Part shown: positions 22,411 to 63,960 of the stretch, one piece after another
How positions within the stretch are numbered: position 1 is the stretch's first letter
Layout: each line of letters starts with the position of its first letter
Origin: Antedon mediterranea
Lineage: Eukaryota > Echinodermata > Crinoidea > Comatulida > Antedonidae
Assembly: GCF_964355755.1 (NCBI RefSeq)
Contig: NC_092672.1
Coordinates: 10,536,501 to 10,600,500 of the forward strand
Length of the DNA: 64,000 bases
Direction: 5' to 3'
Notes under the pieces: model-generated
The model's input: only the letters and a program-made list of their open reading frames with translations
Database searches by the model: none
What the model was told of the DNA's origin: nothing
Program-made: the position numbers and the translations under genes

Positions 22411-22781
22411 TTTAGTATTAATATTCAATTAATATACCATGGAGGTTATTTTTTCCTCCATGTACGCGCTTAAGATGGACTAAATTCATGACACTCATGT
22501 TTTTACTGTGTGGGGTTATAATCAAAATTGTTTTAAACAATTTAAAGAGTAAAAACCACTTAATTGTTGCAATTAATTGTTTTTACAATAAAAATGTTAA
22601 CACCGGAGCTACCCTTTAAATGAGTTTGATACTGTGCTGCTGTCAGAATGTGTTTACGCCCTCTATCATTATTTCAAACCACGTGTGTTACATCAGCAGA
22701 ATTAGAAAAACACTTGCGGCACGGGTGAAGTTTTTGAAAGAATTTTTTGGTATTATTGGAGTAAAAAATATCTAAATAACA

Positions 22782-25700
22782 ATGTCTTGGTTATTTGGTG
22801 TTAAAAAAGATCCGGCACCATCAGATCTTTCACTACCTCAGCTCCCAGAAGGGTTAAACTTGCCCGGTGCCCCGGGAGGAAGTGGCAGCGATGATGGCAA
22901 GAAAGGAGGCGGAGACGAGGCGAAGAAAGTCGCGGGTAGCTGGTCAAATTTTGATCCTACTGGCCTGGAACGTGCGGCTAAGGCTGCTAAAGAACTAGAT
23001 AAATCGGGTAAGTTTAAAGGGACAGGGCTTCATGTAACCGAATATCTGAATTCACGAAGGTTATTATTTATAATAATTTAGAAATATAGAAAGATAAATC
23101 CACAAACTGGAAATGATTGAATTAATTTGTGAAAAGGCGAGTTGAGAAGCCAGCAAGCCAAGAAGAAGGGGGCAGGGAAGAACAAGCATGGATGGAAGAT
23201 CAGTACAAGTTGGCCTCTCCTCCTCCTAGCTAGGGATAGGGAGACACTTGCTGATATTAGAAGATCTAGTTTACATGCATGAAGGTCGACTGTGCCTAAT
23301 TTAATGCTTTATTTGTCGCGCATTTTGAATCGTTAACATTATACTCTCAGTACATGAAATTAAAAACTGAATAAGCTATCTTGGTCTGGCCTAGATAAAA
23401 TTTTCAAAGATTTTTGTTTACAGGAAATGCAAAAGGAGCACTTGAATTGGCAAAACTGCAGGAACAAACTACACACCTTAATAAACAAGGAAAAATTAAG
23501 GTACACAAAAGAATAATATATATCGCAACTCTGATTAATTTACAGCAATGTTGTTGATACTGAAGTAGGCCTATACAAGATTCTAATGACAAAAAATGAT
23601 AGTGCTAAACTTTAACTGCATTAAAAGGAAAAAAAGAGATTAGCATTATATAAATTCCAGAAGTTTTTGTTCGAAGGGTGTGAATTTTCAGTGGGTGGGT
23701 TTACTTTTGATTGGTTTTAATACCTCTCGTAAATCACACATTTTTTGGGGTTTGATTAGATACACTAATTATCCAATCTCAATATTACCTCAGTAAGTAC
23801 ATACACAAGCCAGGATCAGTATGCAATTAATTTTGTGCATCTTATTTTTTACTTAGTCTTTAAATGTGTAAAGATTTGTTATTGTTTATGGAAAAAAAAA
23901 CTTTGATTCAGTAGTACAACCAAAAACAATATAAAAGTATATCAATATTTATGAGTTCAACGGTACAGTTAGCAATATATTCCAAATCTGTATTTATTTT
24001 TTGTTTTTCACTCATTCAGGAATATGAGACTGCTATAGAACAGTATAAAATAGAACAGATACGTGTCCAACAAGAAGAGAAACGAAAGACACTGGGTCAG
24101 GAAACGCAGCAACATCAGCAAAGGGCACAGTACCAGGATCAACTAGCAAGGAAACGATATGATGATCAGCTTGTTCAACAGGTTTGCTAAATACAGTACT
24201 AAATTGGTACCAACTTTTCAATTTTACTTGCAATATTTTGGCAAGTACTTCACCCAGTTTCTGAGTGCTTTCATTTGTTTGTTACCATGATAGCGTTCAT
24301 AATTTTCAAGTTACCGTCCAGAATATTTGGGTGTTAATGGGTATACTTACAGAACAAGCCTATTGATTTTCAGAAAATTGATTTATCTGTGACGTCACAA
24401 TAGCATGCCCTCAGTATTCTTTTTAACATAGGCTGAAATATGAAGTAGTGAGTCCTCTATCTCTCTCTGAATATAGTTTTCACTGATATTTCACCAAGTG
24501 CTTCACTCAGTTTCTGAGTGCTTTTATTTTTATATTCATGGTATAGGTGACATAGGGAGGGTGTACACCAACAATGAAGAATGTGGTCAGTCGGGATGAT
24601 GTTAGTTAACCTCAAAGGAAACACAATGCTCAAAGCACTCTGTTAACTATGTACTGAACGGAAAAACTTTACTCTAAATCGGATGTACTAGTTGTCTGTG
24701 AGCACTTATATATCCGAATATCTGACCTATACACAAAATACAGTTACAGAGCACGGATTCATTCCCCTATTTGTGTTTTTATGACTTGTTTAATTTGATT
24801 AGTCGAAATTTTAGGGTGACATACCACATTACAACAACTAAAAATTGAAGGCTAAATGTTGTTCTACAGTCATTGTCCCACACCTCACCACCAAAGTTTT
24901 AATTTTATTCATGTCTCTAGTAGTATGGCATCGTAAATCTTTCTTGTGCCTTTCAATGCAATAGCCTATGTCAACCAGGTTGATTACATTATTTTTTAGG
25001 CAAATAAATAAGCTTTTTTTATTGGTTTTTAGAAAAGAATGAATGATGAAAATTTAGCCCGTCAAGAAGACTCTGTTAAGAAACAAGAAAATATGCGAAG
25101 AGGTAAAGTAATTAAACAATCATATCCTGCTTTATATACTCCAGCTAGTAATATAATCTGTTTTTGCATTGGAAAATCATATTGCACATCCAAAGGGTCA
25201 CTGTAAAATGTAATGTAGCCAAAGAAAAATCTTGCATATTGTTTTACTGTGGTAACTCAGATAAAAAGGAGCTTTGTCGTTGCGATGACTGACAACTACA
25301 GTATGTCATGTTAATCCACTGTATGCAGGGATATTGGGACGTGTTTCCTCACTCCCCACTTCGACATTTAAACTAAATGTAAGCAACCTGAAATAGATTT
25401 GCCAGCCCAAGATTTGGCATTTGAAAGGACTCTTATATACTGACTATTTTTTCTCAACCTAGCTACAATTGAATATGAAGCTGAGCTGAGACATAAAAAT
25501 GAAATGACGAAATTAGAGGCTGAATTGAGAGGGAAAGCAAAGGTTGAACGAGAAAATAAAGATATCAGAGCTGATCAGATTCGATTGAAGGCTTCAGAAC
25601 ACAGAGAAACGGTTCTGCAGGGTTTGAAGTAGGATTTCTTACATTTTTTAAAAATTAAAATTAGTAAGACAGATGGCTTGCAACGATATGTACGATTGTC

Positions 25701-28700: not shown

Positions 28701-31700
28701 TTATTAGTAGCTTAGATGTTTTTAAATAGCACCATCTATGTTTGAATATTTTATACTTAGTTGCACCTACTAAATCCAGACAGACATTAAAACTTATTAA
28801 AGACTGATTAAAGATGTATTGTCCCCCAGAAAAAATAAAAACAATTTTGTTGTTGAAAATGCCATTTTAATGTCGCATAATAGATATTCACTTTGATCAA
28901 AAATTGGATTAGAAAAAAATATATATATTTACCTGAAAAAACTGTAATTTAAAGCAAAAAACCAATGTGTTTTTGGTTGGAATTAACCATCTATTTTGTC
29001 ATTTTATAAGTGGAAACATTTTTTTTTTTTTTTCTATGGAAGTGAAAATTACAAAATGGCCTATTCAAAATCTTATTTTATTAACCTTCATTTATCATGG
29101 GTTTTTTGGGGCATCCCAGAATTTTTGTAAATGTGCCCTAACTATGAACGTTGAAGCATGCAGAATGTTGTGTTTATTGTTTCAGATTTATGTTAGTGCT
29201 AGCTAGTAATCAGCCGGAACAGTTTGACTGGGCAATAAACGACAGATTAGATGAAATGGTAGAATTTAGATTACCGGACCTTGAGGAACGTGAGCGTATG
29301 GTTCGACTGTACTTTGATCGTTTTGTATTAAAACCAGCATCGGAGGGTAAAAAGTGAGTTAGAGTTTTATAAAAATAACATTCTTCATAATTATGTTTAT
29401 GAATTTCATAAACCTCGGCAAACTAGTTTGTCAAAAAATTGCACTTCCTTAACTTCTGGAACCTAGATTCTGCAGTTTTACTAGCAAACTTTCTACAACT
29501 TTCTTGCTAAACCCAGAGTTTATTCCAATAGGCTAGGATTAATACCCTTTTCACATCTGCAAAAATGTAATCAGATTTGCATAGTGTGAAGACAATTTTA
29601 TGGATAAATTCCCGAGATTTCACAGGGATGCCTGTGAGAAAAAGCCTGTTCTTTCCTTAGGAGATGTCCCAAAGTTTGTATTGCGCATGTGTGTTGGCCT
29701 GAAATTTAACTGACACTAATACAGTACACTAATAATTAAATAGCGCCCCCAACTATGGAATGACAATACACCCCCCCCCCCCCCATCTTGTATGCGTTAA
29801 AGACCCCTTCCCTGCAATTTTGGACGTTTTTTGGAAAATAATACATATACAGTAGAACCTCCATTTTACGTACGGTACGGGACCGATAGCCGTACGTAAA
29901 ACACAGGATTCGTAAAATCAAGGTTGACCTTAAATTGACCTCAAACACGTAGAAATCCTATAGATAACATAGGCTAGGCTAGGCAGTAATGTTTTGTTTA
30001 CATTTACAGCTTCCAGGGCCTGGACAAGTCACGGGAGAGACGGCACGCCGTGCGCGATGCTTAAATAAAATCAGTGTACAGCTGTATTTGTTTTCTTTAT
30101 TTATGTTCATTATTCCTTAAATGTTAAAAATTAATTAAAGAATAAAAACTATCGCCGCCGATATTCACCATACAACAACGTGCTGGGCATCGCACATGGC
30201 TTGTTGTTAGATTGCGTCCTCATGGCTGTAAATATGCAATTAACTTGTTGCCTGCTCGCCCGCCACTACAGTACAGTACGTCGTCGTACTGATTGAATTT
30301 AATGCGAGGCTTGCGTGCATAAGTTACAATTTATACCTAATATACAGTATCGTAAACAAAAGGCAAAAGCTATTAAATCTCTTTGAATTTTGTTGGCCCT
30401 GAAAAGGGCCTTTTGTTTTGATATGTTTTTTTTTTTTTTTCTTTTTTTCTTTCTCTCCGACTTGTTCTACTCAAAGAAGTTTGTTATCTTTGTCTGATTC
30501 AATGACGCTGCTCTCATTTGTGCAGCTTCATCTCTCCACCGACGAATCTGTCTTACATGACATGGATCTTTCTGCATTTGCTCAAACCATTCCACCACAA
30601 CTCCCAATGCCTCAAATGCTTGTTCTGGCTTTACTCGTCTAGTATTTTCACCTTGCTCCTCTTCTTGTTCTTCTTCGTCCGATGATACCGACGAAGTGCC
30701 AAATTCATCAACAATTTCTTCGTCTGTTAACCACTGGTGCCCAGGGTCTTCAGCATCTTCAGCCAACCACTCATCAACACTCATCATGTTTTCAGAGGCT
30801 CCCAGTTCTTGAAACATAGTTTCGAAAATGTTCCTATCCTCTACTTCGTCTGGAGCTGTTTGATCATCTGCTTCATTTTCTGGTTGTTCGACCCTTTCTT
30901 CAACATTTTTCAATAACTTGTTCCATGATCGCTTTAGGTTTTCTTCAGTTGCCGATTCCCACGCATCAGCAATCCAATAGACCGCATCTTTTATAGTCAG
31001 TTGTTTGACTGCCTCAGGAATTGGAGTGTCTATCTGACAAAGAATGTGGCGTAAAAGATTTTTCTTATATCGTCTTTTCAACGGTTCAAGTACCCCCTGG
31101 TCCATCGGTTGGATTAAAGATGTTGTGTTTGGCGGTAAAAACATGACAAGAAAAGCTCCATCTTCTGTGGTTAATACTTCTTCCGATGGATGGGCCGGAG
31201 CATTATCCAAAAGCAACACGATTTTTTCGGGAATGTTGTTTTCGCGGCAAAAGCAGCGCGCACGTGGAACAAAGTTCTCAAAAAACCATTTCTTAAAGAT
31301 AGTTGAGTCCATCCAGGCATTCTTCTGGCTGTAGTAGTCGACGGGAAGACGATCCATATTAATATTTTTAAAGCATCGTGGTTTTGCCGGTTTGTGAACG
31401 AAAGTTAAGGGTATTTTACATGTTCCGCTTGCGTTAGCGCAACCCATAACGGTGACACGATCTTTTGCCGTCTTGAAATTCTTAGCCGTTTTTTCGCCAT
31501 GTAGGACTAGTGAACGGCTGGGCATTAGTTTCCAATAAAGGCCTGTTTCGTCAGCATTGAAAATTTGGTCCCTGGTTAGATTTTCAGCGTCCATCAACAT
31601 CTTTAATTTTGCTTGAAATGGTTCAATCGAACTAGCATTTGCGGACAATGATTCGCCTTGCATTGACAAAGAATGAATTCCATGTCGTTTTTTAAAGCAT

Positions 31701-33810
31701 TCAAGCCATCCATTACTGGCCTCGAATTTGTTATGGCTGTCAGGATACAACTCCTTGGCAAAAAGAAGAGCCTTCTCTTTCAAAAGAGGACCAGAAACCG
31801 GCACGCCTTTTCTCCGCTGTTGTGTCATCCATGCATAGGAAGCCTCGTCTACCTTGGCATATGCGGCTTTTGATAAGTAGGATTTCTCCAAAAACAGACT
31901 GGGTAACTCGCATTTCGAAACAGAACTTTCTATTTCGCCACGTTTTGCCCAGATAGTGGACACAGTCGACTTGGATAAGCCAAACTGAGTTGCTACCACA
32001 AGATTCGAAAGACCTTTCCTTCGTGCTGCAATAATTTTTAATTTAGTATCAATAGAGACACTTTGACGTTTTCGCGTTGGAGCCATGATTATGAATGAAT
32101 TGATGAGTTTAAAACGGTCTTATAAACATAAAAGAATGATAAGATTGATCGTAATTTATTTTCAAATAAACGTCATTAAGGTTTTAATTCTAAATGACAA
32201 TGATGATGTTTATTCTTTGCGGCGTAATATTGTGTGTCGGCATCATTGCTGTACAGGAAGTTTGTTATCGCCGCTGTTAGACGCACAGCTACTCAATGTA
32301 GGCGGCGATTTCTTGATGTCAACAGCGCGTCAAAAGGAATGTTACAAGATAAACAACGAAAGAATGGTGATCGTTATGTTACGTTTTGCGATCTAATTAG
32401 CACTGTTAAATGACTCATACTAAGTGAAACACAAAGATTAAAACGTAAACATGTTTAATGAATAGAAAATACATATAAAGCAACATGCTACTAGGGCCTT
32501 TAATGTATCAAAATATTTTAAAATTATGACGTCATCGGTAATTTTTTACCGTACGTAAAATCGAGGGATCGTAAAATCAGGGTACGTAAAATGGAGGTTC
32601 TACTGTATATCACTTTAAAAACATTAAACCATGTCATTCCTTGTCTTAAATGTACGTTTTATGGTAAATTATGATAAAAAGTGAGAAACAATGCACTACC
32701 TAAGTAGCTCGCGGCGATCGACCTCTCGTGGACGGTCTTAGGCCTAGCCTAGCTAGGCTTAGTTTTGTAGGCCTAGCTGGTAAACTTCGGTAACGTACGA
32801 ACATCGTACGCGAGCTATATACCTAGCCTGACGTTGTATAGTTGCTGCATTAATTGTCTTTCTATTTTTGCCAGACTCCGTTGATACAAATTGGGGAAAA
32901 CCCGGTATTTTCGCTGAAAAGTTAGGAGTCTTCCATTTGTTTTGGCCCCACGATCGATCGAAAAGTGGGCGAATTACAGGTGAAAAACAAAAATATCAAT
33001 CCGCGCGCAATGCATTTTGGGATTTATAGCGGGCCGCTATAATTATTAGAATCGACTTATTTTTCACATTTTTAACCGTTTAAAGACGAAAAAAGTTATC
33101 GCAATAGGACCATATAGTATTATTTTTACATTAAATATAGTTTGTGATCTTAAATTAGATCTAAAAAACGTAGGGAATGGGGCTTTAAAATTCTTTCACA
33201 TTTGTTTTCTTTTCAGACGTTTGAAGCTTGGTGAAATGGATTTCAGTGTTAAGTGTTCTGAAATTGCTAAAGTTACTAGGGGTCTGTCTGGACGTGAGAT
33301 CTCTAAGCTTGCTGTTGCTTGGCAGGTATGGTGCCAACACTTTGATTTTGTTCTGTATGTTTTAGAATATTTATTCCCCTGCATGTCCAGCTGATTCTTG
33401 CATTGGTACTGTCCAGTGTCATAGCCAACTTCTGTAATACATTATCATATGTGTATCACATGTTAGTCCTGTATCATATGTCCTAAACTAACCCTTAACC
33501 TAACCTTCTACGATACAGGTGTCGCATGTAATACACATGTGACGGTAACACTGTATTAAATAAGTTGCTTATGATAGTAGACTATTACAGTGTGGAGAAT
33601 TGTGTAGCACATTCTAAATAGGAAACAAATGAAACATTTTATTTCGTTTTTATTATCTAGGCTAGTGGTTTTGCCTCGGAGAATGGCACGTTAACATCGG
33701 AGATGATAGACGCGCGTGTAGAGGAAGCAGTAAAACAACATGCACAGAAGGTTGAATGGCACGACAACGAGGAATCGAAATGGGAGAAAATACGACAGAC
33801 AAAAGCTTAA
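22782..33810 (+). CDS. ATAD3: ATAD3, mitochondrial AAA+ ATPase, complete (594 aa)
   Basis: Fourteen exons: 22782-23007, 23424-23500, 24020-24181, 25033-25102, 25463-25628, 25961-26030, 26231-26443, 26727-26852, 27160-27284, 27789-27840, 28623-28693, 29186-29353, 33217-33325 and 33661-33810. The total is 1785 nt, and all phases join. The start [11 protein letters not shown] and the block [19 protein letters not shown] match ATAD3 from memory. Residues about 80-240 form a charged coiled coil. Residues 258-275 are the membrane segment ([15 protein letters not shown]). The AAA domain has Walker A GPPGTGKT (359-366), Walker B LLFVDE (414-419), sensor-1 N461 and R473. Length is close to human ATAD3A (586-634). 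Known role: anchored in the inner mitochondrial membrane, linked to nucleoid and cristae organisation and cholesterol transport. Intron 12 carries a Tigger transposon and intron 10 a 56-bp tandem array. No coding defect is seen. Confidence 0.97.
26561..26695. mobile_element. MITE family A, copy 2
   Basis: In ATAD3 intron 7. It opens CTCTGTCTACACTTATCAAA and contains GATGTGCCCATATATGGG and two copies of CCATATTTGGGCA. The right end is shortened to AACTAGTTTGATA. Relatives are listed under 2065-2223. Confidence 0.75.
28260..28597. repeat. 56-bp tandem array, six copies, in ATAD3 intron 10
   Basis: Six head-to-tail copies with an exact 56-bp period (AGACTCC at 28262, 28318, 28374, 28430, 28486 and 28542). 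The last copy is degraded. Each unit ends TTAACTATTTATCATTTTAG or a close variant, which resembles a branch point plus 3' splice site. The array stops 25 bp before the true acceptor of exon 11 (28621-28622). Confidence 0.95.
29650..29770. repeat. dispersed repeat, copy 2 (first copy 570-756)
   Basis: Shared blocks are given under 570-756. It is followed by a C tract (29769-29784) and then, 65 bp on, by the Tigger element. Confidence 0.55.
29850..32605. mobile_element. Tigger/pogo-type DNA transposon, apparently full length (2756 bp)
   Basis: The left end CAGTAGAACCTCCATTTTAC and the right end GTAAAATGGAGGTTCTACTG are exact inverted repeats of at least 23 bp. TA flanks both sides (29848-29849 and 32606-32607), the duplication made by pogo/Tc1-mariner elements. 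Further inverted GTACGTAAAA blocks lie just inside. The element contains one intact transposase gene on the minus strand. It lies in ATAD3 intron 12, antisense to the host gene, and splits no exon. Confidence 0.95.
30467..32086 (-). CDS. Tigger/pogo-family transposase, intact (539 aa)
   Basis: A single uninterrupted ORF starting [18 protein letters not shown]. It encodes the enzyme that cuts and pastes the surrounding element. Residues 1-52 are a CENP-B-type helix-turn-helix. Residues about 75-140 are the second DNA-binding fold (GNGWL-type motif [14 protein letters not shown]). Residues about 170-390 are the DDE endonuclease domain. The catalytic aspartates are all present: D179 in [11 protein letters not shown]294 in [10 protein letters not shown] and D329 in [10 protein letters not shown]. 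The tail is acidic, and the last residues QTKITNFFE fit the PCNA-binding PIP-box pattern QxxIxxFF, a feature known from pogo transposase. No stop or frameshift is seen. The lack of decay suggests recent activity or a recent arrival. Domestication is less likely, because the inverted ends are intact. Confidence 0.96.
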   Translation of the reverse strand: MAPTRKRQSVSIDTKLKIIAARRKGLSNLVVATQFGLSKSTVSTIWAKRGEIESSVSKCELPSLFLEKSYLSKAAYAKVDEASYAWMTQQRRKGVPVSGPLLKEKALLFAKELYPDSHNKFEASNGWLECFKKRHGIHSLSMQGESLSANASSIEPFQAKLKMLMDAENLTRDQIFNADETGLYWKLMPSRSLVLHGEKTAKNFKTAKDRVTVMGCANASGTCKIPLTFVHKPAKPRCFKNINMDRLPVDYYSQKNAWMDSTIFKKWFFENFVPRARCFCRENNIPEKIVLLLDNAPAHPSEEVLTTEDGAFLVMFLPPNTTSLIQPMDQGVLEPLKRRYKKNLLRHILCQIDTPIPEAVKQLTIKDAVYWIADAWESATEENLKRSWNKLLKNVEERVEQPENEADDQTAPDEVEDRNIFETMFQELGASENMMSVDEWLAEDAEDPGHQWLTDEEIVDEFGTSSVSSDEEEQEEEQGENTRRVKPEQAFEALGVVVEWFEQMQKDPCHVRQIRRWRDEAAQMRAASLNQTKITNFFE

Positions 33811-48440: not shown

Positions 48441-51400
48441 ATGGCCATCTTGAAATTCCTCTTAATTTTTGTTGTGTTTCCGTTATACTGTAGTTCTGCA
48501 GACGTTACAGGTAGGATTGAGTTAAATTGTTTGTTGAAGTTTAAGTTTGATTCCTATTTAGATCAATTTTCCAAGTAACATTGAACAAAATTAATATAAA
48601 CTAAGGAAAAACATTGCTAAAATCCAAAGGTAGCAAATGAAAACGATAAAGAAAATTATAAATAAAATACATATTGTTAACATACTTTTTATAAATTTAC
48701 AAGTATACATATTTGTCAGTCACGTTTCTCGGGTATAATATTATTTTAAATATGTTATTTCATTTTACTGATGATGTTATTCAGCACAACAACGAAACAA
48801 ATAAGTCTTAAATTTCTTTCATTTTATTGTTTGGAAGTATTATTATCATGACATTACTTTAAACACTCTGGTGAGTACAGGATTTACGCAGGTGGAAAAA
48901 CCTTCGAATAAATCAAAGCAAAGTGTATACAGTTTATTTTAATTGTTAAAATTTACATGTTACAGACGCAAAAAATGCCGTATGCCCAAACGATTGTTCC
49001 TGTAGGCCTGACTATCGCCAGTGTAAGAACTTTGTCTCTTGTGGTGGATGGAGTAATGACACCTCTGTTAAAGTAAACGCATACACACCAGCAATAGACT
49101 TCTTGTAAGTATTTACTATGGTTGTGTTCAGATCCATATAGACTCTAGGTGTGATTCACTACTGCTTTTAATAGTAAAAACCGCAAGGAAAAAAATAATA
49201 ACATAGGAACATCCCGTCAAACTTGTTTTAATACTAATATCTTCCGTAAACGTTTATTTATATTATACAGTTTATTTAGGGTTATGTTTCTGTTCATGAT
49301 CTCCCTATTGCAGCAACCTGCCTTTGAAATAACTGTGATTTGGTGTTTTCAAATTCTCAAACAAAGACCCAACGATATTGAGAAGTTTTATTAGTGGTGT
49401 CTGTTTGCGAGATTTCTCGAAACAAGAAACCTCAATAGAACTTGCTGTTGTGAGTTGTTTTAGTTGAGTTTTCGTTTTCTGGATTCATGTCTGGTCACAT
49501 TTACGTTCGAAGTCTTTTTACCAACGGTTCACACTTTTAACTACAATAAATTAAGATTAAATGAATGTTGCCAAAATACACAACAATACTATATTTCTCC
49601 CCCCCCCCCCCCCCATTTTTTTTATTAGTCCTTTTTACTTAATTTTTTCTTGTATTATTTGTTTTTCTTTCTTTTTTCTTCCTTTATTTATTTTTGTAAT
49701 TTGTTTCTACTATTTTTTTTTCTTTCTTTTTACTTCTTCTTTTCTTTCTTCTTTTGTTTTTCTATTTTCTCCTTCTTTATGTTTTATTATTTCTACTTTA
49801 TATTCTGTTTACTTTTCTGCTGTCTTCTTTCTATTTTATTTTTACTTCTACTACTTTTTCTTATTTTCTCTTTTTCCTTCTTCATATCCAACAAAAATGT
49901 TAGAAACTCTGACATTTTCAGGATTAATTTTGAGTTTCGAGGTTACAGAATAATATTTTATTAGAAATATTCCAATCCAACAATTAGTATTAAATCTCGA
50001 ATTTTCGCACTAGGCAGTAAAAAACTATATTACAATTGTAAGTTAAACTAAAAGTTAATTTTGTTACATTAAACTGGCAAATTAAATTTTACATCTGTAT
50101 TTTTTTTCTAGGGATTTGTCCGGTAGCAGTTTAAGTAGATTGCTAAACAATGCATTCAATAGATTGACTAAATTGATAATTCTGTAAGTATCAGATATTG
50201 TTTAAATAAAATTTTGCAGGCGAATGAGCACTAATGCATTTAGGTTTGCGTTACACTATGTGTTTCCAAATAGTTCAGAATGTCTTGGCGTTACGGTTGT
50301 TATGTTTCAACCGTGTTCTATGTCTTCGTTCTCAGGAATCCTTTTGCCAGCACGTGGTGTACCACGAACTTAATACATGTGTAAGAATCAGACCTCCCAA
50401 CTTGGAAAAATGAAATATTGGGATGTCTTTTTGAAATTATAGAGGGTGCTATAATACTACATTACACCATAGAGGGCGCTATGAAAAATCTAAAAAATAT
50501 AGCCATCTTATATAATACGTGCCAAAGGCGAAAATTGCATTATTTCACTTACTGAACAACACATGAATAGATTATAGATATTATATGGACCGATATTTGT
50601 ATGTTTCTATGCTTTTATCAATATCTAGAGTTAGTGGAAATTATAGATTTATACATATTGGGAAAATGTTTCCGTTCATCCAAAATATCGGGAGAAATTG
50701 CATTTAAGCGGAAGCAGACTTAAAATATTGGGGAACTCCCGCCATTATGGGGAGAGTTGGGAGGTCTGAGGAATTATTTTGTCGCCTTAAGCCTAGACAA
50801 AAACCCAATACCACCACGTACACCTTAAAAGTACCTGGTATGCATACCCATCGTATCAGCCGATTCTCAGTACTTTTGTTGGACAAAGTAAATAACCCTT
50901 AGCCTAACCTTAACCGTCTATGACGCAGGCACCAAATAAGCTGTGAACTTGCTTATAATTATAGGAAAATCATTGTCGTCATAATGGAGCCAGCAATGAA
51001 AATGTATCTTACATAGCGAGTTAGGTCTATCCTAGTTTATGTGATTGGTTGGTATTATAGAGTTTAGTTGTATTTTGAAAATTCCACACTTTGGAATTCT
51101 GAAGTATCAAATAGGCCTACTATACATACTGGGTATATCATTATACGTAACAATACAATTGAAGTATTGTATTCATTAGCTAAATTCTCAATAAGACGGT
51201 TACATATTTTCTTTCCGGAGAGGCACCCACTAAGCACTTATAATAAGACAAACTTAGATGACAGAAAACATTGCATGTTTCTAGAATCCCGTTTTTTAGT
51301 CACGTGCAACAGCTCACTATGTCGGTCGGTCGGTCGGTAAACACCAACTCAAATTTCAGCACGCGACTGCAGCCGTCTATATGGCCTTGTTTTAATTCTG

Positions 51401-54400
51401 CAATGTTTTTATGCACTTTTAGGGATTTGTCGTGGAACGCTATTACTAGCTTGCCAGCCGACGCATTTACTGGATTGGAAACATTGTTAATTCTGTAAGT
51501 CCATTCATACAAAATACGTAGGCCTGCATACTACTTTCAACTTCATTGAAATATTTTTCTTGTGATTTTACACAATGTGTGCATGCTTCAATGAATGTAT
51601 TTCGTTTGTAAAATTATTAAAACGTCCTTTGATGAACTTAAAAGTATAACATAATGAAACACTTCTTTTTCTTAGGGATTTGTCCGAAAACGACATGATG
51701 ACATTGACACATAACTTGTTTTCTGGATTATCAGCTTTGAAAGAACTGTAAGTTATCGTGTTTTCACGCCTGATTGTTAAACGTTACAAACTAATAGTGA
51801 TCGAGTATATGGAGCAAATAAGCGGACATTTTAACAAATATACAAAAAAACAATGTTAAGAAATGCAAAACTATTCACAAGGCCGTGTTTCCGCAACCCA
51901 TATAAAAATCGATAATTAGGCCTACTCCGCGTCTAAATCTGTAGCACTGCCTTTTTTAATGGCCTAGCTTCCCGGCCTAGCAAAAGTAGGTGTGTATGAG
52001 TGACAAAATAATCAATCAATGTTTTGTATTCGTTAAAGACATAAATAGAGTAGTCAATCTCACGAAACGACCAAATCACGTAAACGACAATATCTTGTAA
52101 ACGGTCACATCCGTAAACGACCACACCCGTAAACGGCCACATCCGTAAACGACACATCCGTAAACGGCCACATCCGTAAACAACCACATCCGTAAACAAC
52201 CACACCCGTAAACGGCCACATCCGTAAACGACCACACCCGTAAACGGCCACACTCGTAAACGATCACATCCGTAAACGATCACACCCGTAAATGACCACA
52301 TCCGTAAACGGCCACTTCTGTAAACAGCCACATCCGTAAACGGCCACATCCGTAAACAACCACACCCGTAAACGGTCACATCCGTAAACAACCACACTCG
52401 TAAACGGCCACACTCGTAAACGGCCACATCCGTAAACGACCACAACCGTAAACGACCACACTTGTAAACGGCCACATCCGTAAACGACCACACCCGTAAA
52501 CAACCACACCCGTAAACGGTCACATCCGTAAACAACCACACTCGTAAACGGCCACACTCGTAAACGGCCACATCCGTAAACGACCACAACCGTAAACGAC
52601 CACATCCGTAAACGACCACACTTGTAAACGGCCACACCCGTAAACGGCCACATCCGTAAACGACCACACCCGTAAACGGCCACATCCGTAAACGGCCACA
52701 TCCATAAACGACCACATCTGTAACGGCCACATCCGTAAACGACTACATCCGTAAACGGCCAAACTCGTGAACGACCACATCCGTTAACGGCTACATCCGT
52801 AAACGACCACATCCGTAAACGACCACATCCGTTAACGGCCACATCCGTAAACGACACAGCCGTAAACGACCACATCCGTAAACGCCCGCATCCGTTAACT
52901 GCTACATCCGTAAACGGCCACACTCGTAAACGGCCACATCCGTTAATGGCCACATTCGTAATCAGTTTTCAGATTGTGTTAATCAATGATTGATCAATTG
53001 AAAAAGTTATAAAAAATATATTTCAATTTTTAGAAAAAAAAATGACATAGTTATATTACTTGTTTATATTTAAGGTATTTGTCCAATAACAGAATAGATA
53101 CATTAGAAGGAAATGACTTATTTACTGGATTGAAATCATTGAACAAACTGTAAGTTTTGGGTAGTTTCTTTTTTCATACTTGTTTAACAATAAACACCAT
53201 TTTGGTGTCAATAGAGTAGCCGGTTTGTTTTAAGAGAATAATAATGATAATAGGTCTAATAAAAATATATATTATAGGGCATATCACTTGCAAACAAGGT
53301 AGGGTTAGTATTACCCGAAAGCTCTGCAATTTTTTGTTGTTGATTTAGTTTATTTTACTTATATCACCATTGAGATTCAGCCACTGATACCCACATACTT
53401 GTAATTTTTTCAGTAATTTCTCCTTTGAACAATACGAATTTTATGTAATTAGATTTTAAATCAATCCGTATGTATGTATCGGCGTTTTAACTTAAATTTA
53501 CTCGTTTATATAGTGTGTGAATGTGGGCTTCATTCTTGTATTCAATCAATTCAGTTTATTGTGAAGATGATTAAAAAAAAATATCATTATGATGAATGAT
53601 CGGAATAAAAAATGTGACCCAAGGTACTTAATTTACAATGGTTTTATTTTCCTAAGGGTCTTTTCCGAAAACTACATAACTAAATTGAAGGTTAACTTCA
53701 CTGAATTGTCAGCATTGGAAGAACTGTAAGTTGTATTGCTTGTAACTGATAATTATAGGCCTACATTACGCATGAACATAATTAATATCAAATATTGAAT
53801 TAAATATATAACTAAATTGTACTTTACTATAATACAGTATACTAAAAGTTATAACGTAAAAGTCAATAACATCGTATAGTTTAAGTTTATTTAAAGTTTT
53901 AAAAACCCGTGAAATTGGAATTAACAAATAATAACAACATATTAATGTACTTTGGTTTCTTGTTATTTAAGGGATTTATCCCAGAATCTATTGCCTAATT
54001 TGAAAACCGATACATTTACTGGGTTGGTGAATCTGACAAATCTGTAAGTTGTTTCAATGCTTTTTAATTGTACAGTAGTTTGAGATACCTGGCTCTTGTG
54101 TTGCATTTGCTCTGTATCACAGGAATATTTGGTAGTACAGCACTCATTTGTATCACATGGTGCCTGTATCATGTAAGGTTTGGTTAAGGAGATACATGTG
54201 AAAAAAAAATATTAACAAATATTCCTACTGAAGAAATCTAGATGCATTAACAAGGAAGAAAGAACGCATGGTGATATACAGGCCAACATAATGTATTTTA
54301 TCATGTTTTTGTTTTCCTAAGGGATTTGTCCAAAAACAAAATAAAAACATTGGAAGGTAACACTTTTAATGGATTGTCAGCGTTGAAAGAACTGTAAGTT

Positions 54401-57400
54401 ACTTAGTACTTGAATAGTCTGGTATTAAGTTAAGCTTATATTTACTCATTATTAAAGGCTTTAATAGAAATGTTATATCTGTATATACCTTAACAAAAAA
54501 CAGGTTATCTGTATTAAACTTTAGGTAATCCAATAACTAATTATGATTACTTACGGAAATTTGTGTGGAATAATAATGTATAGAGTTTTAATCAATAGAC
54601 CTGCGGATAATTTTTCTTTGAATAATTAATAAACTTCTTGAAAATCTAACAAAATTGGCAGAGAATTAAGTATAATCCTTAATATACAATGTTGTTTATT
54701 TTTAAGTGATTTGAGCGGAAACAGTATAACTAAATTGGTAAGCAACACATTTATCGGATTGGACGTGTTGACCAAACTGTAAGTTATGCTTCTAGTCCAT
54801 TACATCATGGATAAAATTCAAGGATATTCATCGACGGTGAGATCAAAAGATTACCCAACGCGCTAGCCCACTGCAAAAAGCACGCTAATCTCCGTCTCTC
54901 TTGTCGCGGCACTCTGTGAATCAACCGTTAAAATATTTTAAATCAGGATCAATAACAAAACGTAGCCATGTACAAATCGTATGCGCAGTCTGATTGTTCT
55001 ATTGACATGTCTGCGCCGAGGATTAATTGACAACACAAAAATATATTGCTGAACAGCTATTTTTAATTTCATTAAAATCGGACTACGGAAAGTTCACTTT
55101 CTTACGACAGTAGTCTTAAGTACTTAAGTTTTTTATATTTGAATTATCATATTGTTCCGGAAATCTCCGGATATTAAAAATTACGTTATATAGACTACAG
55201 TATTAAATAATGCATTTTAACAAGTATGTCTTTGTGTGCGGTGGTGTTCAGTGAAATAATTTTGTTTTAACTATAAGGTTATATGAATCTCCTAATAATT
55301 GATCGTTGTGAATATATTTGTATTGTAGTGTCTGGTGATTGGCTAGTAGTTATGTCATCTACGTCACAGCCAATAACCGTGGTCCCTGGTCTGATTGCCG
55401 CCATACCACAACGGCTAAAAGTATTTTCTATAAACTTCTTGGTTGCGAATTCATGTGCTTGTCGGAAAGAGGGATGGAACGATTTATATTACCCCTGATA
55501 CATATCCTTGTGTTATTTTATCCATGGTACATAATGGAACGAGCTTTCGTTTCCGGGATATATTCTTATTTTGCTAAAGTGGTATTATTTCTTGCATATC
55601 ATTGAAAGACTGAATGAATAAAAATTCTTATATTAATAAGTTACCGGTAGCTAATTTGTATCGGATACTTTGTCCTAAATGTTACCTAACTTTTGGTATA
55701 ATTACCAATTATATTTAATTATACCAATTAATAATTACTTTCAGAACTCTATGCTAATTGGTCCTGTTCAGTTCCAACCAGTAAAGTGCTTGACAAATAA
55801 TTTACTTTCATTCTGCATTTTTTTTTCATTTGTAAGGGATTTTACTGGCAACACTATAAATGCATTGGACACCAACGCATTTACTGGATTGGCAAAATTG
55901 GAACATCTGTAAGTGTGTTAACGTTAAAAGTGAAATTAATTGTTTGTAAACTGTCAACGGTAACGCTTGGTTCAATTCCCACTAGAGATGCAATACAAGG
56001 ACGTAACGCAACGTAAGCGATGGATTACTCGAACTGTCGCTTGTCATTGGTTAACACGCTTGTGTTGCGTTTACGTCCTTGCGTTACGTTCTAGTGGGAA
56101 CCAAGCTTAAGGGAGTTATTTACCGGGGTAAGATGGTTTCTACCCACCAAACTTACCGATAAAACCAATATTCCCGGGTATATCTAAACCTGAATCAATC
56201 AATCAATCAATCGTTCGATGTATATAGCTAAACCTGAATGAGTTCTTTGTAATCTCTTACAGTCTACTCCATTAGCCATTTTAATTGTATTTTTAATAAC
56301 GCTTCATGACTGTAATTTTGATTTGAAGGAAGTTGAGCGATAAAGGGATAACTAAGTTGGCGTCCGGGACGTTCACTGGTATGGATTCATTGAAAATACT
56401 GTAAGTCATTTGCACTTTGAAGAAGTACAAAAATTCTACTTGTTGATAATATATTTCTTTCGGAAAGTCATATAAAGTAAATTGATCATAGTAAAGGTTC
56501 CGTATGCACAAATAGGACGCCATATACATTGCAGCACAGGTTCGCAATCCATATTGACAGTATTTAAGTAATTAATAATAATATAATAATAGTTGATTTG
56601 AAATGCACGTTGTTTCTATCGGACACACACACGCGATACAGTATCGTCAAAAAACGAAAGCTCTGTCTACACTATCAAACTAGTTTGACAAAACAACAGT
56701 TTGATGTGCCGTAATAATGGTAGTTATATGACGTCATCGTATCGATATAGTTGAGCACGTCAAAGTTTTTTTGTCACATAAAGTTTGATAGTGTAGACAG
56801 AGCTGATGTGTTGTTGTTGTTTGATTGTTAAAAAGGGCAAGGAACACCTTTTATATAGGCCCATATTTCAGGAAAAACATTCTTTTCGTTCCTTTTTTAA
56901 GGACATTTACTTTTTTATAATAGTTACTCCAATCAGCACAAAGATCCAATTGACATACTGTTTTTTATTTTCAGGGAATTGTCTAACAACAAAATAAGTA
57001 AATTACCAGGCAATGCATTTTTTGGTTTGAATAAATTAGAAAAATTGTAAGTATTGTTGGAATCTATGTCATTGTTTTCCTTATTTATGAGATAGGAAGA
57101 CTCAATGCGATTGAATCTTTTGGCTTCAACTAAACTAAATTTACTATTGATCCATTATCATAGGACTACAATACTTGAGCATAGTGAAACATTATTACAG
57201 CTTTTATGAGATGTGAAAGGACCAACATAGCCATATCTATTTTAAAACAAAAAGTAACAGTGAAACATTTAATGTATTTAAACTATTTTCTTTGAAGGGA
57301 TTTGAAAGATAATGAAATTGAAACGTTGGTAGCCACTGTGTTTAATGATTTGGGAGAATTAAAAGAATTGTAGGTATTTCGCCATCATTCTTGTGAAAGT

Positions 57401-60400
57401 AATGGTTAATTCATTTAAAAAAATGCATTATGTAATTATATAACATTTTAATAATAGTTTATAGATTAAAAATTAAACTAATTATCTTTGCCACATAATC
57501 AAAATGAGCCTGTTTTTGCAAGAACTAATACAGTGTGCTCCACCATTTAACTCTAGTAAAGTTGTCCCTCAAAAACATTAAAAATGAAGATTAATAATAT
57601 CAGACTTTATAATATACCATTTTGCAGTTCTAATAAAGTTATGCCTAATCACTTCCACAGAAAAGGGGATAAAGATTGTCAAAACGACAATTTTACTTTT
57701 TTCCATTTAAATTACAGTTTTTCAGGTAACTTTTTTTAAAGATCCAATTTGTGGTCAAAGTGAATAACTATTATGATTTAAAAATGAACTAGTTTATTAA
57801 AAAAAATTGTTCCTGCAGGGAGACCATAATCTTTAATTAATGTATTTTTTCTGAACAGATATTTACAGAACAACCAAATAAACATCATAGCTCAGAGAGC
57901 ATTTGAGCCGTTTGCTGCATCGCTTACAGATTTGTAAGTATGTCCATACACACTAAAAAAAAAAGGTGCAAATCTCTACCTAAAAAGGTGCAAACCGATG
58001 CAACAATAGCAGCTCCCTTTAAGGTGCACAACTGCACCTTTGACGGAAGGTGCAATTTTGAACCCTGATAAAGGGTGCTATAATGCTCCTTTGGAGTTCA
58101 CATTTGCACCATATAAGGTGTAATTTTCTACCCTAAAAGGTGCAAACTAAATGCAACAATAGCAGCTCCCCAAAGGAGCAAAATTCAACCTCTAAATAAA
58201 GGTGCAACTTTACACCCTAATAAAAGGTTCAATAATGCTCCTCTAAGATTCCAATTTCTGTTAAAAAGGTGCACAAATAAAAATCACTAAAATACAAAAA
58301 ATATTGATTAAGCTTTGTATAATTTTATTCAACTTTAAAACATTACATTATTCAATTCAACTGCTGAATTAATGGATGGCAATTACCAGTCTCTGCACCT
58401 TAAATAGAGTGTGGCCATCTCTTCTCAAACCAACAATAGGCCTATTGTTAAAATTATCTAATGATGACATCTTTGGCAGTATTCTCTTCGTATCCCCATA
58501 TATCTGAAACAGTGTTCTTGATGTCTGGTTCACCTTTTCCGAACATTTTCACCTGATTATGTACTTTCCTAAAAAGCATGAAATAGGAAGGGAAAATATT
58601 ATATTAATATTATCATTAATATGACAACATCATACAATACATTATTGACATTGTTCTGATTTTTAAAGTAAAATTACCTTGACCACATGCTTCACATACT
58701 TTAAAGTATGTTCCTCTCCCTTTCCTCAGCTCGTAGTATAGTAGGCCCTATTATATACTAGAGTATTAGAGTACATGTGGTCACATTTCTTTCTCCTTTT
58801 CTGAACATCTTTTTTGCTGCTGATTAGAGCAGAGGTGCTCTTTCATGTTTTAAACTTATTTTATCCCTCCATGACATCATGTAGGCTGTAACTATAATTA
58901 AAAATAATGATAATGTGTATAAGAATTTAATATAGGCCTAGGCCTAATAATACCCAGCTACTGTAATAACTAATATTAATAACTAGGCCCCTGGCCTGCC
59001 TAGCTAGGCCTATTATTAATTATAGGCCTAGCCGGCTAGCTAGGCCTAGGACTGCTTTTAATTAAGTTTAAGGTCTAGGCCTACCTAGTAACCTAGGCAT
59101 AGCTAGCCTATTATGCCTAACCTACTAGCTAGACCCAGGTAAGTAGGCTAGCTAGGCCTGGTCTAGGACTAGCCCCCGCCCGAAAGGCTACTGTAGGCTA
59201 AGTAGGCCTCTAGACTGCCTACTTTAGGCTTAACCTAGCCTAGGCCTAGGCCTAATAGAGGCCGCCTAGATAGGCTAGGTAGGAGGCCTCTAGCTAGCCA
59301 TATTTATTTATTTAGCTATCATTTTTAAGTTTTAGGCCTAGCCTAGGCTTATAGGCCTATACAATAATTAATCTAATAAAAACAACCAAACTACATGCCT
59401 ATAAAGCTTCGTTACTTACTTTTAACAGCTATCCTACACCGGAGAGGTGTGGGAGCTAGGCCTAGCCTAGGCCCTAGTTTAATTTTATAGCCTGATTTTT
59501 TGGGCGCAAACTCCTCAATTCAAACTGCATGTTTAACAACCGCACGCGCTTAAAATTATTGTTCAATTCCTGTTTCAAATAAATTTAGAACAGATGCCTA
59601 CATTATGATATTAGATATTCTAATAATATTGTTAAATATGAAAGAAAAGTTTACTTATTCTAGACTTAAGCAAACCAGAGTAAATAACCTCTGAAATTCA
59701 ATATTTTAACAATTGTTTACAGACATCTTGCGTGCGCATACGGTACGAAAATTGTACAAAAATTGTACAAAAAGGTGCTATTATGCACCTTTTAACTGAT
59801 GTTAAACCTTATAGGGTGCCCAGTTGAACCTTTGAATTTATCATGTTAAAGGTATAAAACTTTAATTTTCAGTTACAAGCCAGCGACTTTCTAATGTTCC
59901 GTAAAAAAAAGATTTGTTCGAATTTTGTATTTGTCCCCACAAACCTATCTATATTATTATTAATCTTTCTTATTTTTGTTTTAACTTACCACAATAATGT
60001 CATTCTAAAAAAATTGTCCTTATCATCACCTTTTAAGCTTTTAGAAGCCCTAAGTTAAACATATCAAGAAGCGTTCATTAATCTAATAGGTCTTATTTGT
60101 CACACAGTCACCATGGCCTACTTGGGCCTTTGCGGTGCAGTTCTGCACCTTTTTATACTTGTCTGCATTTTTCGATATAAAAGGTGCAAAAATAAACCTT
60201 TTATGAACTCTGCACCATTTTATGAGAAAAAGGCGCAAATTAGCACCCTTTTATAGGTTTGCACCTTTTATTGCACCTTTAGTTTTAAGTGTGTATAGAC
60301 AGATTTTACGCCTGTATTCAGTATAATGTTAGGGCAATAGGGAACCGTTTGCGCCACAAAACAACGAATGTAAAATGTTGGTAATTGTTTTCAAATCTGG

Positions 60401-61300
60401 AAAGCATGTGAACGGTTCATATGCGTTCGGAAATTTAGTATATTAAATTTTAGTAGATTAATTATAAGTGTTCGTCAAAATCAAACTAGATCATACCATT
60501 AATGAACCGCGTGTATCGACATGAATACGCCGCCGCGGCATTTAAAATCGGAACTATTTAGGAGCTTTCGATTTGCGACGACCAAAGTACGTCATGTTAA
60601 TTCATTGTGCGCATGCGGGAATAGGAAGTGTTACTTGCTCCCCACCTCAACACATTTTGATAGTTTTTAAAGGCTAACTCAGAAAGCGTCATATGACGAG
60701 GCCCGAAGTAAGGTCTTGACTCGTCGGTGCTGTCTGAGTTGAATCCCAACGAGATACAATCGGGCGTAGTTTTTAGGTTAATGGAAGAACTTTATGTTTA
60801 ATTTTCTCCCGACGAGACGACACGTCGGGCATCGTCGTACGATCTGTCTGAGTTAGCCTTAAGCCCTCCAGGTGACGACCGATTGATTGACCACTTGACC
60901 AAGTTAGGTAGGTCATCTGTCGTTGCTGTGAGATTTTTAAAACTAAACAACAGGTGTTTGATTAATTCTAATATTTTACCCATATTCGTTTTTGGCTCTA
61001 TTAAAAAAAAAAAATTAAACCGAGTTTATACGACCATTTATGGAATGGTTTCGTTGCGATCTATGATCGCATCCCAATTATTTCATTATCATCTAGGAAA
61101 TCTAGTTGGTATGCATTTAAAAAATAGTTATATTTCTAATCGTACCCTACAGTATCTTTTATAATAAAAAATAATTTAAAATTATTTTATACTTATCTGT
61201 ACGTATCTTATTTTTTTTATAGACAACTACAAGGCAAAAAAAACACCTTACAAGATTATAGAGACAACACATTTTACGACCTGATAAGCCTACAACGATT
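48441..61300 (+). CDS. secreted/surface leucine-rich-repeat protein, 16 exons seen, 3' end not seen
   Basis: Exon 48441-48510 starts MAILKFLLIFVVFPLYCSS, a signal peptide. Exon 48966-49104 has a cysteine cluster (CPNDCSC, RQCKNFVSC) like an LRR N-terminal cap. Fourteen LRR exons follow: 50112-50183, 51423-51494, 51676-51747, 53075-53149, 53657-53725, 53972-54043, 54322-54393, 54707-54778, 55837-55908, 56329-56400, 56975-57046, 57298-57369, 57859-57933 and 61223-61300. Ten are exactly 72 nt, the others 69, 75, 75 and 78. Each encodes one repeat of the form LxLSxNxIxxLxxNxFxGLxxLxxL. Every exon starts with one base and ends with two bases of a split Leu (or Phe) codon, so all are phase 2-2. In total 1226 coding nt are seen. 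Role inferred: extracellular protein binding, perhaps recognition or adhesion. No LRR C-terminal cap, membrane helix or stop was found before the window ends. Some LRR exons may have been missed in long introns. Confidence 0.88.
49599..49895. repeat. poly(C) run and ~280-bp T/C-rich tract in an LRR intron
   Basis: A C run near 49601-49614 is followed by almost pure pyrimidine (T-rich) sequence on the plus strand. Apparent ORFs rich in F, S and L are products of this composition. Confidence 0.85.
51310..51392. repeat. dispersed repeat, copy 2 (first copy 11527-11592)
   Basis: It has CAGCTCACTATGTCGG with three extra CGGT units, then GCACGCGACTGCAGCC and TATATGGCCTTGTTTT. It ends about 30 bp before the LRR exon at 51423 and may supply part of its pyrimidine tract. 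Confidence 0.6.
52075..52965. repeat. 16-bp minisatellite, about 55 copies, in an LRR intron
   Basis: The unit is CGTAAACGGCCACATC, with GACC/AACC and CACC/CTC variants. Long minus-strand open frames of 265 and 229 codons run over it (repeating VVYGCGRLRVWPFT). The unit lacks stops in those frames, so these are repeat artefacts, not genes. Confidence 0.95.
53300..53425 (-). repeat. dispersed retroelement-end repeat, copy 2 (inverted)
   Basis: On the minus strand it reads ATTACTGAAAAAATTAC, GTGGGTATCAGTGGCTG, ATCTCAATGGTGAT and GCAGAGCTTTCGGGTAA, matching 47385-47545. Confidence 0.55.
55961..56109. mobile_element. foldback MITE family B, copy in LRR intron
   Basis: It opens AACGCTTGGTTCAATTCCCAC and closes TCTAGTGGGAACCAAGCTTAA. 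Inside are AAGGACGTAACGCAACGTAA and the inverted TTGCGTTTACGTCCTTGCG. Confidence 0.8.
56659..56804. mobile_element. MITE family A, copy 5 (best-preserved ends)
   Basis: It opens AGCTCTGTCTACACTATCAA and closes with the exact inverse TTGATAGTGTAGACAGAGCT. The outermost AGCT is itself palindromic. It lies in an LRR intron. Confidence 0.88.
57949..60293. mobile_element. 2345-bp DNA element with AAGGTGCA subterminal repeats and TA duplication
   Basis: The left end CACACTAAAAAAAAAAGGTGCA and right end TGCACCTTTAGTTTTAAGTGTG are inverted. TA flanks both ends (57947-57948, 60294-60295). Both sides carry many copies of AAGGTGCA/TGCACCTT within about 350 bp of each end, including a 150-bp internal duplication around TGCAACAATAGCAGCTCCC. 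The middle holds a large AGGCCT-rich patch and no recognisable transposase. It lies in the LRR intron after the exon ending 57933, starting 15 bp after that exon. Confidence 0.8.
58930..59490. repeat. AGGCCT/CTAGGCCTAG-rich low-complexity region
   Basis: Dense self-complementary words CTAGGCCTAG, GCTAGCTAGGCC and TAGGCCTA inside the 57949-60293 element. Similar to 18320-18440. Confidence 0.85.
60669..60864. mobile_element. ~195-bp MITE, AAGGCTAACTCAGA ends
   Basis: The left end AAAGGCTAACTCAGAAAGCGTC is matched inverted by GATCTGTCTGAGTTAGCCTTA. The interior is CG-rich (CGTCGGTGCTGTCTGAGTTG, ACACGTCGGGCATCGTCGTA) and could form an imperfect hairpin. Confidence 0.65.
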
Positions 61301-62895: not shown

Positions 62896-63960
62896 ATCAC
62901 ACCTCTGTCACTCATCCCGATGATATGCAAATTAGCTTAAATATGCTAATTATGGTGAAATTACAGGGTTACCATATTATCTCAAAAACTAATAGTCCGA
63001 GAGAGTTGATTTTTTCACTGATCTATTCAAAATGTATATATTTATATTTACTATAATGAAACATTTTACGAAAAAATGACCGGAAATACAACATTTGACC
63101 TTCGACCCCATTTCTCAACGTTTGCATATACAATGTGACTAAAATGTCTGTAGAGACTTTATTTTGCCCTCAAATGACCCAGACATAGGTTCCTAATAGC
63201 CAGCATAGGATCACTTTGTAATTCCCAAAATCACACCTTTGTCACACACCTCGAAAGTATGCAAATTAGTAGTACAATTTAAATAAAATATACAAATAAG
63301 GAGAAAAAAATTACAGTTGTCCTTTATCTCGAAAACCACTAATGCTAGAGAGCTGATTTTTTCACAGCCGTATGCAGAATGTACATATTTCTATTTGCTC
63401 CAATGAAACATTTTACAAAAAATTGACCGGAAGTATGACATTTGACCCTCGACCCCATTTCTCAATATTGCATATATAAATGAAACTAAAAATGTCTGTA
63501 GAGACTTTGTTTTGCCCTCAAATGACTCCGATACAGGTTTCTAATAGCCAACATAGGACTGTTTAGTAGATCTCAAAATCACACCTGTATCACTCACCTC
63601 CAAAGTATGCAAATTATTAGTACAAGTTACATGAAATATGCAAATTAGAGGGTGAAATTAAAGGTTCCTATATATCGAAAACGACTAAGGCTAGAGAGTT
63701 GATTTTTTCAATAACTTGTTCAGAATGTACATATTTATATTTACTCTAATGAAACATTTTACGAAAAAATGACCGGAAATACAACAATTGACCCTCGAGC
63801 CCATTTATCAATGATTGCATACATAATGCGACTAAAATTTCTGTAGAGACTTTGTTTTGGACTCAAATAACTCGGATACATGTTTCCTATAGTCAGCATA
63901 GGACCGCTTTGTAATTGCCAAAATCACGCCTTCGTTTTGGCATGGTTGGAATTCTTTTTT
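62896..63960. repeat. satellite-like tandem repeat, ~345-bp period, just over three copies
   Basis: ATCACACCT starts near 62896, 63230 and 63578, and a fourth, cut-off copy (ATCACGCCT) starts at 63923. Shared landmarks are ATGCAAATTA, AGAGAGTTGATTTTTTCA, GAAACATTTTACGAAAAAATGACCGGAAATA, TTTGACC, CGACCCCATTT and CTGTAGAGACTTTGTTTTG. The copies differ by roughly 10-15 percent, so the array is not recent. Confidence 0.9.

Follow-up and report, generated by a model that had tools for sequence, protein, structure and literature searches.

Leucine-rich repeat (LRR)-containing G-protein-coupled receptors (LGRs) join an LRR ectodomain to a class A seven-transmembrane (7TM) domain and are encoded with one LRR per exon and phase-2 introns. 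Type C LGRs (RXFP1/RXFP2, LGR3/LGR4, and GRL101) have an LRR ectodomain preceded by at least one LDLa domain, a hinge, and the class A 7TM domain. Multiple LDLa repeats mark the GRL101 type (C2), whereas some genes of the RXFP/LGR3 type (C1) have phase-1 introns inside TM2 and TM5, as passages in PMC11863921 describe. According to passages in PMC8286064, each ambulacrarian species surveyed has one ortholog per type C receptor, and single-repeat exons of ambulacrarian LGRs are sometimes skipped, with this skipping named as a cause of wrong assemblies. In gonadotropin receptors, the introns are all in phase 2 and the LRR exons are similar in size (passages in PMC11378527). Here, we analyze an LGR gene of the crinoid Antedon mediterranea in a stretch of 64,000 nucleotides, “the window” (C3:10536501-10600500, on contig NC_092672.1), within one 354-Mb assembly of 18 contigs, from which 296,500 bases outside the window were also read. 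An earlier note on the window had described a row of single-repeat LRR exons in this gene and proposed a surface or secreted recognition protein diversified by splicing or copy number. We consider it probable that this row of 14 exons codes for the LRR horseshoe of an LDLa-less LGR whose 7TM domain is nearest to the relaxin-receptor class, and that the receptor belongs to a large family that consists partly of fast-evolving recognition receptors, the window gene being one of its older, stable members.

Variable lymphocyte receptors (VLRs) of lampreys and hagfish keep their LRR scaffold nearly identical while varying at concave positions and are assembled somatically from germline LRR cassettes. 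The LRR-ROCO genes of brown algae were reportedly the subject of earlier work by Zambounis in 2012. Passages in PMC11378527 ascribe to them 72-bp, phase-2 exons of one LRR each, exon shuffling, and positively selected concave sites. Tetrahymena LRR genes, which number in the thousands, have tandem LRR exons of a fixed length (90 bp), phase-2 introns, and clonal expansions, and the passages of PMC6564038 that describe them mention no GPCR domain. In the snail Biomphalaria sudanica, the schistosome-resistance-associated region SudRes2 holds a tandem expansion of GRL101-like LRR-GPCRs, with 12 genes in 440 kb; 10 of the 12 carry LDL and C-type lectin domains, and a neighboring non-GRL101 gene holds the top resistance variants (passages in PMC12297450, in which the LRR exon structure is undescribed). 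A starfish GRL101-like receptor is expressed at a higher level in sensory tentacles than in tube feet, according to passages in PMC6267866.

Results

A 17-exon gene with an LRR ectodomain and a 7TM exon

The complete gene comprises 17 exons at 48441-68328 on the + strand (window numbering), ends 4.3 kb beyond the window, and encodes 744 amino acids in a single open frame with AG/GT sites throughout. In order, it encodes a signal peptide, an LRR N-terminal cap, 14 LRR exons, and a final exon with a hinge and a seven-helix GPCR domain. The gene model predicts a single gene for the LRR and 7TM exons, and Pfam detects LRR_8 in seven stretches of the protein and 7tm_1 with an E value of 6.8e-31. 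The earlier note had suggested looking to the right of the row for a C-terminal cap or a membrane helix, and the hinge, the seven helices, and a stop codon are all present there, in exon 17. Its proposal of a surface protein agrees with the gene model, the Pfam domains, and the PDB matches given below, which together describe an LRR-ectodomain GPCR; a secreted or Toll-like LRR protein was set aside in view of the 7TM exon that follows the LRR exons.

Exon 1 (48441-48510, phase 0 to 1) contains the start codon and the signal peptide (MAILKFLLIFVVFPLYCSSADVT), with a hydrophobic core recognized by eye, and exon 2 (48966-49104, phase 1 to 2) contains the N-terminal cap. We take the CPxxCxC motif of this cap to be an LRRNT; the Pfam scan of the gene's protein gave no LRRNT match for it. 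The earlier description of at least 14 LRR exons at 50112-61300, mostly of 72 nt, holds: 14 are found, each flanked by AG/GT, encoding one repeat, and entering and leaving in phase 2, so that the frame neutrality attributed to them is confirmed for the entire row. Ten are 72 nt long (exon 3, 50112-50183; exon 4, 51423-51494; exon 5, 51676-51747; exon 8, 53972-54043; exon 9, 54322-54393; exon 10, 54707-54778; exon 11, 55837-55908; exon 12, 56329-56400; exon 13, 56975-57046; and exon 14, 57298-57369). The others are exon 6 (53075-53149) and the penultimate LRR, exon 15 (57859-57933), both of 75 nt, exon 7 (53657-53725) of 69 nt, and the last LRR, exon 16 (61223-61300), of 78 nt; all lie on the + strand. 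The paralogs read at C8, C6, C7, C9, and C10 also have a 75-nt counterpart of exon 15. The LRR exon donors are GTAAGT in 12 of 14 cases and GTAGGT and GTACGT in the remaining two. About 6 kb beyond exon 16, and outside the window, exon 17 (67320-68328, + strand; L001:3320-4328; C3:10603820-10604828) provides the hinge and the 7TM domain in 1009 nt, with the stop at 68328. Exons 1 and 2 had been left out of the earlier note's list, and exon 17 lay beyond its reach; with these three the gene is complete.

We searched the 22-kb gene region with an LRR profile built from 13 of the 14 window exons, which is circular for detection, although not for phase or strand, and may overlook diverged LRR exons. 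The profile recovered 13 nonoverlapping phase 2-2 exons on the + strand and none on the − strand, and it recovered none from any of 20 first-order Markov resamples of the region. Among stop-free AG..GT candidates of 60 to 87 nt, it matched 15 of 92 in phase 2-2 (overlaps counted), 0 of 71 in phase 0-0, and 0 of 80 in phase 1-1. With nothing on the − strand, in the other phases, or in the resamples, an origin of the row as chance exons was rejected.

The introns are rich in repeats, as had been noted before. A 16-bp minisatellite of 56 copies occupies 52065-52961, inside an LRR intron, and there are further repeats in introns. A 347-bp satellite lies at 62977-63931, in the last intron. In the intron after exon 15, a stretch of about 2.3 kb (57950-60300) has ends that, by eye, seem to be inverted copies of a AGGTGCAA-rich sequence and is perhaps a DNA transposon.

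Receptor class

Among the PDB matches listed for the 7TM exon, the closest is relaxin receptor 1 (E value, 1.1e-51; 179 bits), followed by the follicle-stimulating hormone receptor (4.1e-32; 115 bits) and LGR4 (5.6e-16; 62 bits). GRL101 is absent among these matches, which do not fix a placement in type C1 versus C2. In the gene model, an LRR ectodomain is joined to a class A 7TM domain, with one LRR per exon and phase-2 introns, as in LGRs, and the 7TM domain is closest to that of relaxin receptors, as in type C. However, the type C hallmark of an LDLa domain before the LRRs is missing. The LRR cap comes directly after the signal-peptide exon, with no LDLa between them; a pattern search of 104 kb around the gene on both strands and the Pfam scan of the protein found none, and the identical pattern finds four in the C3b paralogs (C3:7.04-7.05M). 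An LDLa hidden upstream of the gene was set aside after the upstream search. The 7TM domain is a single exon, without the phase-1 introns found inside TM2 and TM5 of some RXFP/LGR3-type genes, and the multiple LDLa repeats of the GRL101 type are absent. Because the LDLa is missing, we name the gene an LDLa-less LGR, predicted from its sequence to be related to type C and to be neither an RXFP nor a GRL101 receptor.

A large family of 7TM exons

Searching the genome with the window 7TM domain gave 119 matches, on C1 to C11. By hand count, 65 of them, the window gene included, span at least 298 of the 313 residues and are free of in-frame stops, at 42 to 100% identity. Removing C8:24429632, which is cut short, leaves 64 near-complete, uninterrupted 7TM exons; these are exons rather than proven genes, and three of them share one LRR array at C9:16.72M. 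Near-full-length matches of at least 65% identity number 48, including the window gene and one copy with a stop, and the identity of the window 7TM domain to paralogs on C6 and C8 is 72 to 74%. Neighboring 7TM copies occur on C8, C7, C1, C9, C10, C3, and C5. We found no description of this LGR expansion among the top matches in open-license papers.

Several of the paralogs of 42 to 61% identity have LDLa matches about 4 to 22 kb upstream (assigned by position only, with 150 of 954 candidates scored), and the LDLa pattern found none at the closer-group loci that were fetched (C8, C7:5.72M, C1:24.25M, C6, and C9). The simplest reading is that the LDLa was lost in the expanded group. At C10:13.24-13.26M, a single LRR exon was located ahead of the 7TM exon. 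At C9:16719001-16739000 (L005 and L006), tandem 5.13-kb units, each with a 7TM exon, come after one short LRR array. Three of these units were read and are 98 to 99% alike; a fourth, known from the 7TM search only, is damaged and contains a stop. They may possibly represent alternative last exons or a very recent duplication.

Exon-plus-intron duplication in sister genes

The cluster at C8:24.37-24.49M contains eight genes, with 10, 12, 8, 9, 6, 10, 13, and 11 LRR exons ahead of the last LRR. A shared signal-peptide-like start lies upstream of all eight, and a splice-phase search found an N-cap-like exon end upstream of seven; a search by similarity to the window cap gave no match at C8. Of the 79 exons, 69 are of 72 nt, with 48 distinct peptides; the set of 72-nt exons leaves out a 60-nt exon (24427018, called too short), a 69-nt exon (24465017, at an alternative acceptor), and eight 75-nt exons.

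Within each C8 gene, the introns resemble one another, with similar intron pairs numbering 27/36, 47/55, 16/21, 23/28, 6/10, 28/36, 57/66, and 39/45 in the eight genes (243 of 297 within-gene pairs in total). The copied unit therefore comprised exon plus intron. In one gene, a four-exon block occurs twice, and the two copies agree, without gaps, at 2181 of 2315 bases; in another, a two-exon block occurs twice, with agreement at 1163 of 1175 bases. Similar intron pairs were also found at C7:5.72M (28/36), C1:24.25M (21/21), and C7:22.43M (10/15). By DNA, the nearest exon lies in the same locus for 49/49 exons at C8, 8/8 at C7:5.72M, 8/8 at C1, and 6/6 at C3b.

Variability of the concave face in paralogs

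For entropy and the ratio of nonsynonymous to synonymous variation (pN/pS) at C8, identical exons were collapsed (69 to 49). In these 49 distinct 72-nt exons, variability over the 23 positions is highest at five, and these coincide exactly with the five that we assume to be the concave β-strand positions, a coincidence expected by chance once in 33649. For the comparison of codons with introns, identical exon-plus-flank copies were removed first (at C8, from 69 down to 56), and only pairs with flanks that aligned over 80% were kept, which excluded 851/1540 pairs at C8, 7/28 at C7:5.72M, and 20/28 at C1. Concave codons at C8 differ 4.7 times as much as the flanking introns (bootstrap, 4.2 to 5.4; 689/1540 pairs usable) and scaffold codons 0.74 times as much; at C7:5.72M, the concave codons differ 5.9 times as much (4.1 to 9.3; 21/28 pairs usable). 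Synonymous sites between the concave codons vary little, with a mean of 0.113 at C8 (single sites, 0 to 0.255) and 0.062 at C7:5.72M. Since these sites are far less variable than the concave codons, selection is favored over regional hypermutation.

Neighboring and other features

Downstream of the LGR gene, L002:862-3054 (− strand) contains a single-exon, 731-amino-acid 7tm_1 GPCR frame. Elsewhere in the window, an open 550-amino-acid transposase frame at 30470-32119 (− strand), with DDE_1, Tc5-type HTH, and HTH_23 domains, lies between ATAD3-like exons, with ATAD3_N at 22776-23078 and a later exon near 33050 identified by eye and without a Pfam match. A caspase domain at 14429-14788 and a CARD-like stretch at 16455-16781, below the Pfam cutoff (both − strand), perhaps belong to one caspase gene. 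At C3:5547639-5659532, both strands hold open frames of about 210 to 440 amino acids with many LRR_8 matches, apparently a cluster of intronless LRR genes.

Discussion

The earlier observation of an LRR exon row is correct, and its interest lies in the surrounding family rather than in the window gene's own pattern. LGR genes are known to carry a single LRR in each exon and introns in phase 2, and therefore the pattern is ordinary for this gene. As in other members of the family, the LRR concave face would bind the ligand and the 7TM domain would signal through G proteins. In the fast-evolving paralogs, the number of repeats would shift by unequal exchange, with the frame left intact by germline gain or loss of repeats because the introns match in phase 2, and the concave residues would change under selection. 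Such receptors may recognize varied or co-evolving targets, whether microbial, chemosensory, or self/nonself, while the window gene, as an older and stable member, would have a more constant ligand. Diversity by splicing may add to this model, which does not need it.

Several observations weigh against this reading. The LRR part by itself does not indicate relaxin receptors; it matches the IGF-binding acid-labile subunit best in the PDB (2e-61), with LGR4 second (6.3e-55), and does not discriminate. In the window gene, the concave positions are not the most variable among the LRR exons. None of its 120 intron pairs is similar; therefore, no recent exon exchange is visible, and we rejected such exchange for this gene. 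Its ten 72-nt exons share a mean nucleotide identity of 59%, and the nearest exon lies within the same gene for 6 of the 10 by DNA and 4 of the 10 by protein, so that its LRR row looks old and stable. Intron pairs are not similar at C6 (0/3) and C3b (0/1), and at C1 the units are duplicated without any concave excess (ratio, 0.77; 8/28 pairs usable). Three of the eight C8 genes, all retained in the exon counts, are damaged, with a stop in one 7TM domain, another 7TM domain cut short, and one last-LRR exon containing stops, so that decay may be under way in part of the cluster. Lastly, the pooled pN/pS at the C8 concave codons is only 0.97, which we attribute to saturation. We regard the intron comparison as more telling, although the flanks may have been kept alike by conversion.

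Accordingly, what had been proposed from the window alone applies in part. Gain and loss of exons by unequal exchange is supported in the sister paralogs by the similar introns within genes and finds no support in the window gene; likewise, the repeats thought to favor such exchange are there, but its introns bear no sign of it. The copy-number idea thus fits the family, and the window gene itself gives no sign of it. A diverse recognition surface is strongly indicated at two paralog loci, C8 and C7:5.72M, but not in the window gene or at the C1 locus.

Taken by itself, the window gene could be an ordinary peptide-hormone LGR that inherited its exon structure, has a single conserved peptide of relaxin or insulin type as its ligand, and plays no role in diversity. 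This explanation concerns that gene only, is compatible with the family-level reading, and has, in our estimate, little less than an even chance. It draws on the phase-2 introns and similar-sized LRR exons of gonadotropin receptors (passages in PMC11378527), on the single-exon repeats of ambulacrarian LGRs (passages in PMC8286064), and on the lack of recent exon exchange or concave hypervariability in the gene itself. It sits less well with the 48 near-full-length matches among which the gene is found, unlike the one-ortholog-per-type pattern described in passages of PMC8286064, and with the missing LDLa, given that an RXFP2 splice form without this domain retains ligand binding but loses signaling (passages in PMC4561518). 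A repertoire generated by splicing, as in Dscam, would instead join subsets of the 14 exons into many receptor isoforms. All 14 exons are frame neutral, and both repeat skipping in LGRs and isoforms of brown-algal LRR exons are described (passages in PMC8286064 and PMC11378527, respectively), but weak donors are not evident, given GTAAGT in 12 of the 14, and the window exons are too diverged to resemble interchangeable cassettes, and we hold such a repertoire to be unlikely.

For the paralogs, concave hypervariability might stem from codon-targeted mutation or conversion rather than from selection on binding. At C8, third positions of the concave codons (0.435) vary to about the same degree as first and second positions (0.552 and 0.383), and the flanks stay similar, as they would under conversion; the process would nevertheless have to spare single bases, considering how little the synonymous sites between the concave codons vary at C8 and C7:5.72M, and we hold this origin to be improbable. 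That the gene is an artefact of chance frames or a dead gene, an idea that the abundant intronic repeats might encourage, is close to refuted by a frame that stays open across 17 exons bounded by AG/GT sites, the complete lack of profile matches in the resamples and on the opposite strand, and the similarity of the 7TM domain to the C6 and C8 paralogs.

Like VLRs, the fast-evolving paralogs vary at the concave positions of an otherwise near-identical LRR scaffold. Among the PDB matches listed for the C7:5.72M array, the first VLR (VLRA, 2o6q) ranks 17th, behind LRRTM, designed LRRs, SHOC-2, and others, and the window gene, unlike a VLR, is a complete germline gene with a 7TM domain. Of the LRR-ROCO traits, the 72-nt, phase-2 structure is present in the window gene, whereas shuffling and concave excess are not seen there but are found in the C8 and C7:5.72M paralogs; the brown-algal genes, from an unrelated lineage, carry a ROC-COR GTPase rather than a GPCR domain, and Pfam detects no ROC-COR GTPase domain in the window gene's protein. 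The Tetrahymena genes share the tandem, fixed-length LRR exons and phase-2 introns, but in another exon length and in a ciliate. The likeness to SudRes2 is one of tandem expansion.

A broader reading, which we put forward tentatively and at somewhat less than an even chance, is that of a germline VLR-like system built on GPCRs. In it, dozens of LDLa-less LGRs, with exons multiplying by unequal exchange and concave residues under strong diversifying selection, would make up an immune, allorecognition, or chemosensory repertoire derived from a hormone-receptor family, perhaps with exon skipping, and the window gene would be a slow member. Because the exons share one phase, their number and order can be read from the DNA of different individuals. 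The 64 near-complete 7TM exons found here contrast with the one ortholog per type C receptor in the ambulacrarians surveyed in the passages of PMC8286064. If this broader reading is true, a hormone receptor would have been turned into a recognition repertoire, convergent with the VLRs of lampreys and the LRR-ROCO genes of brown algae.

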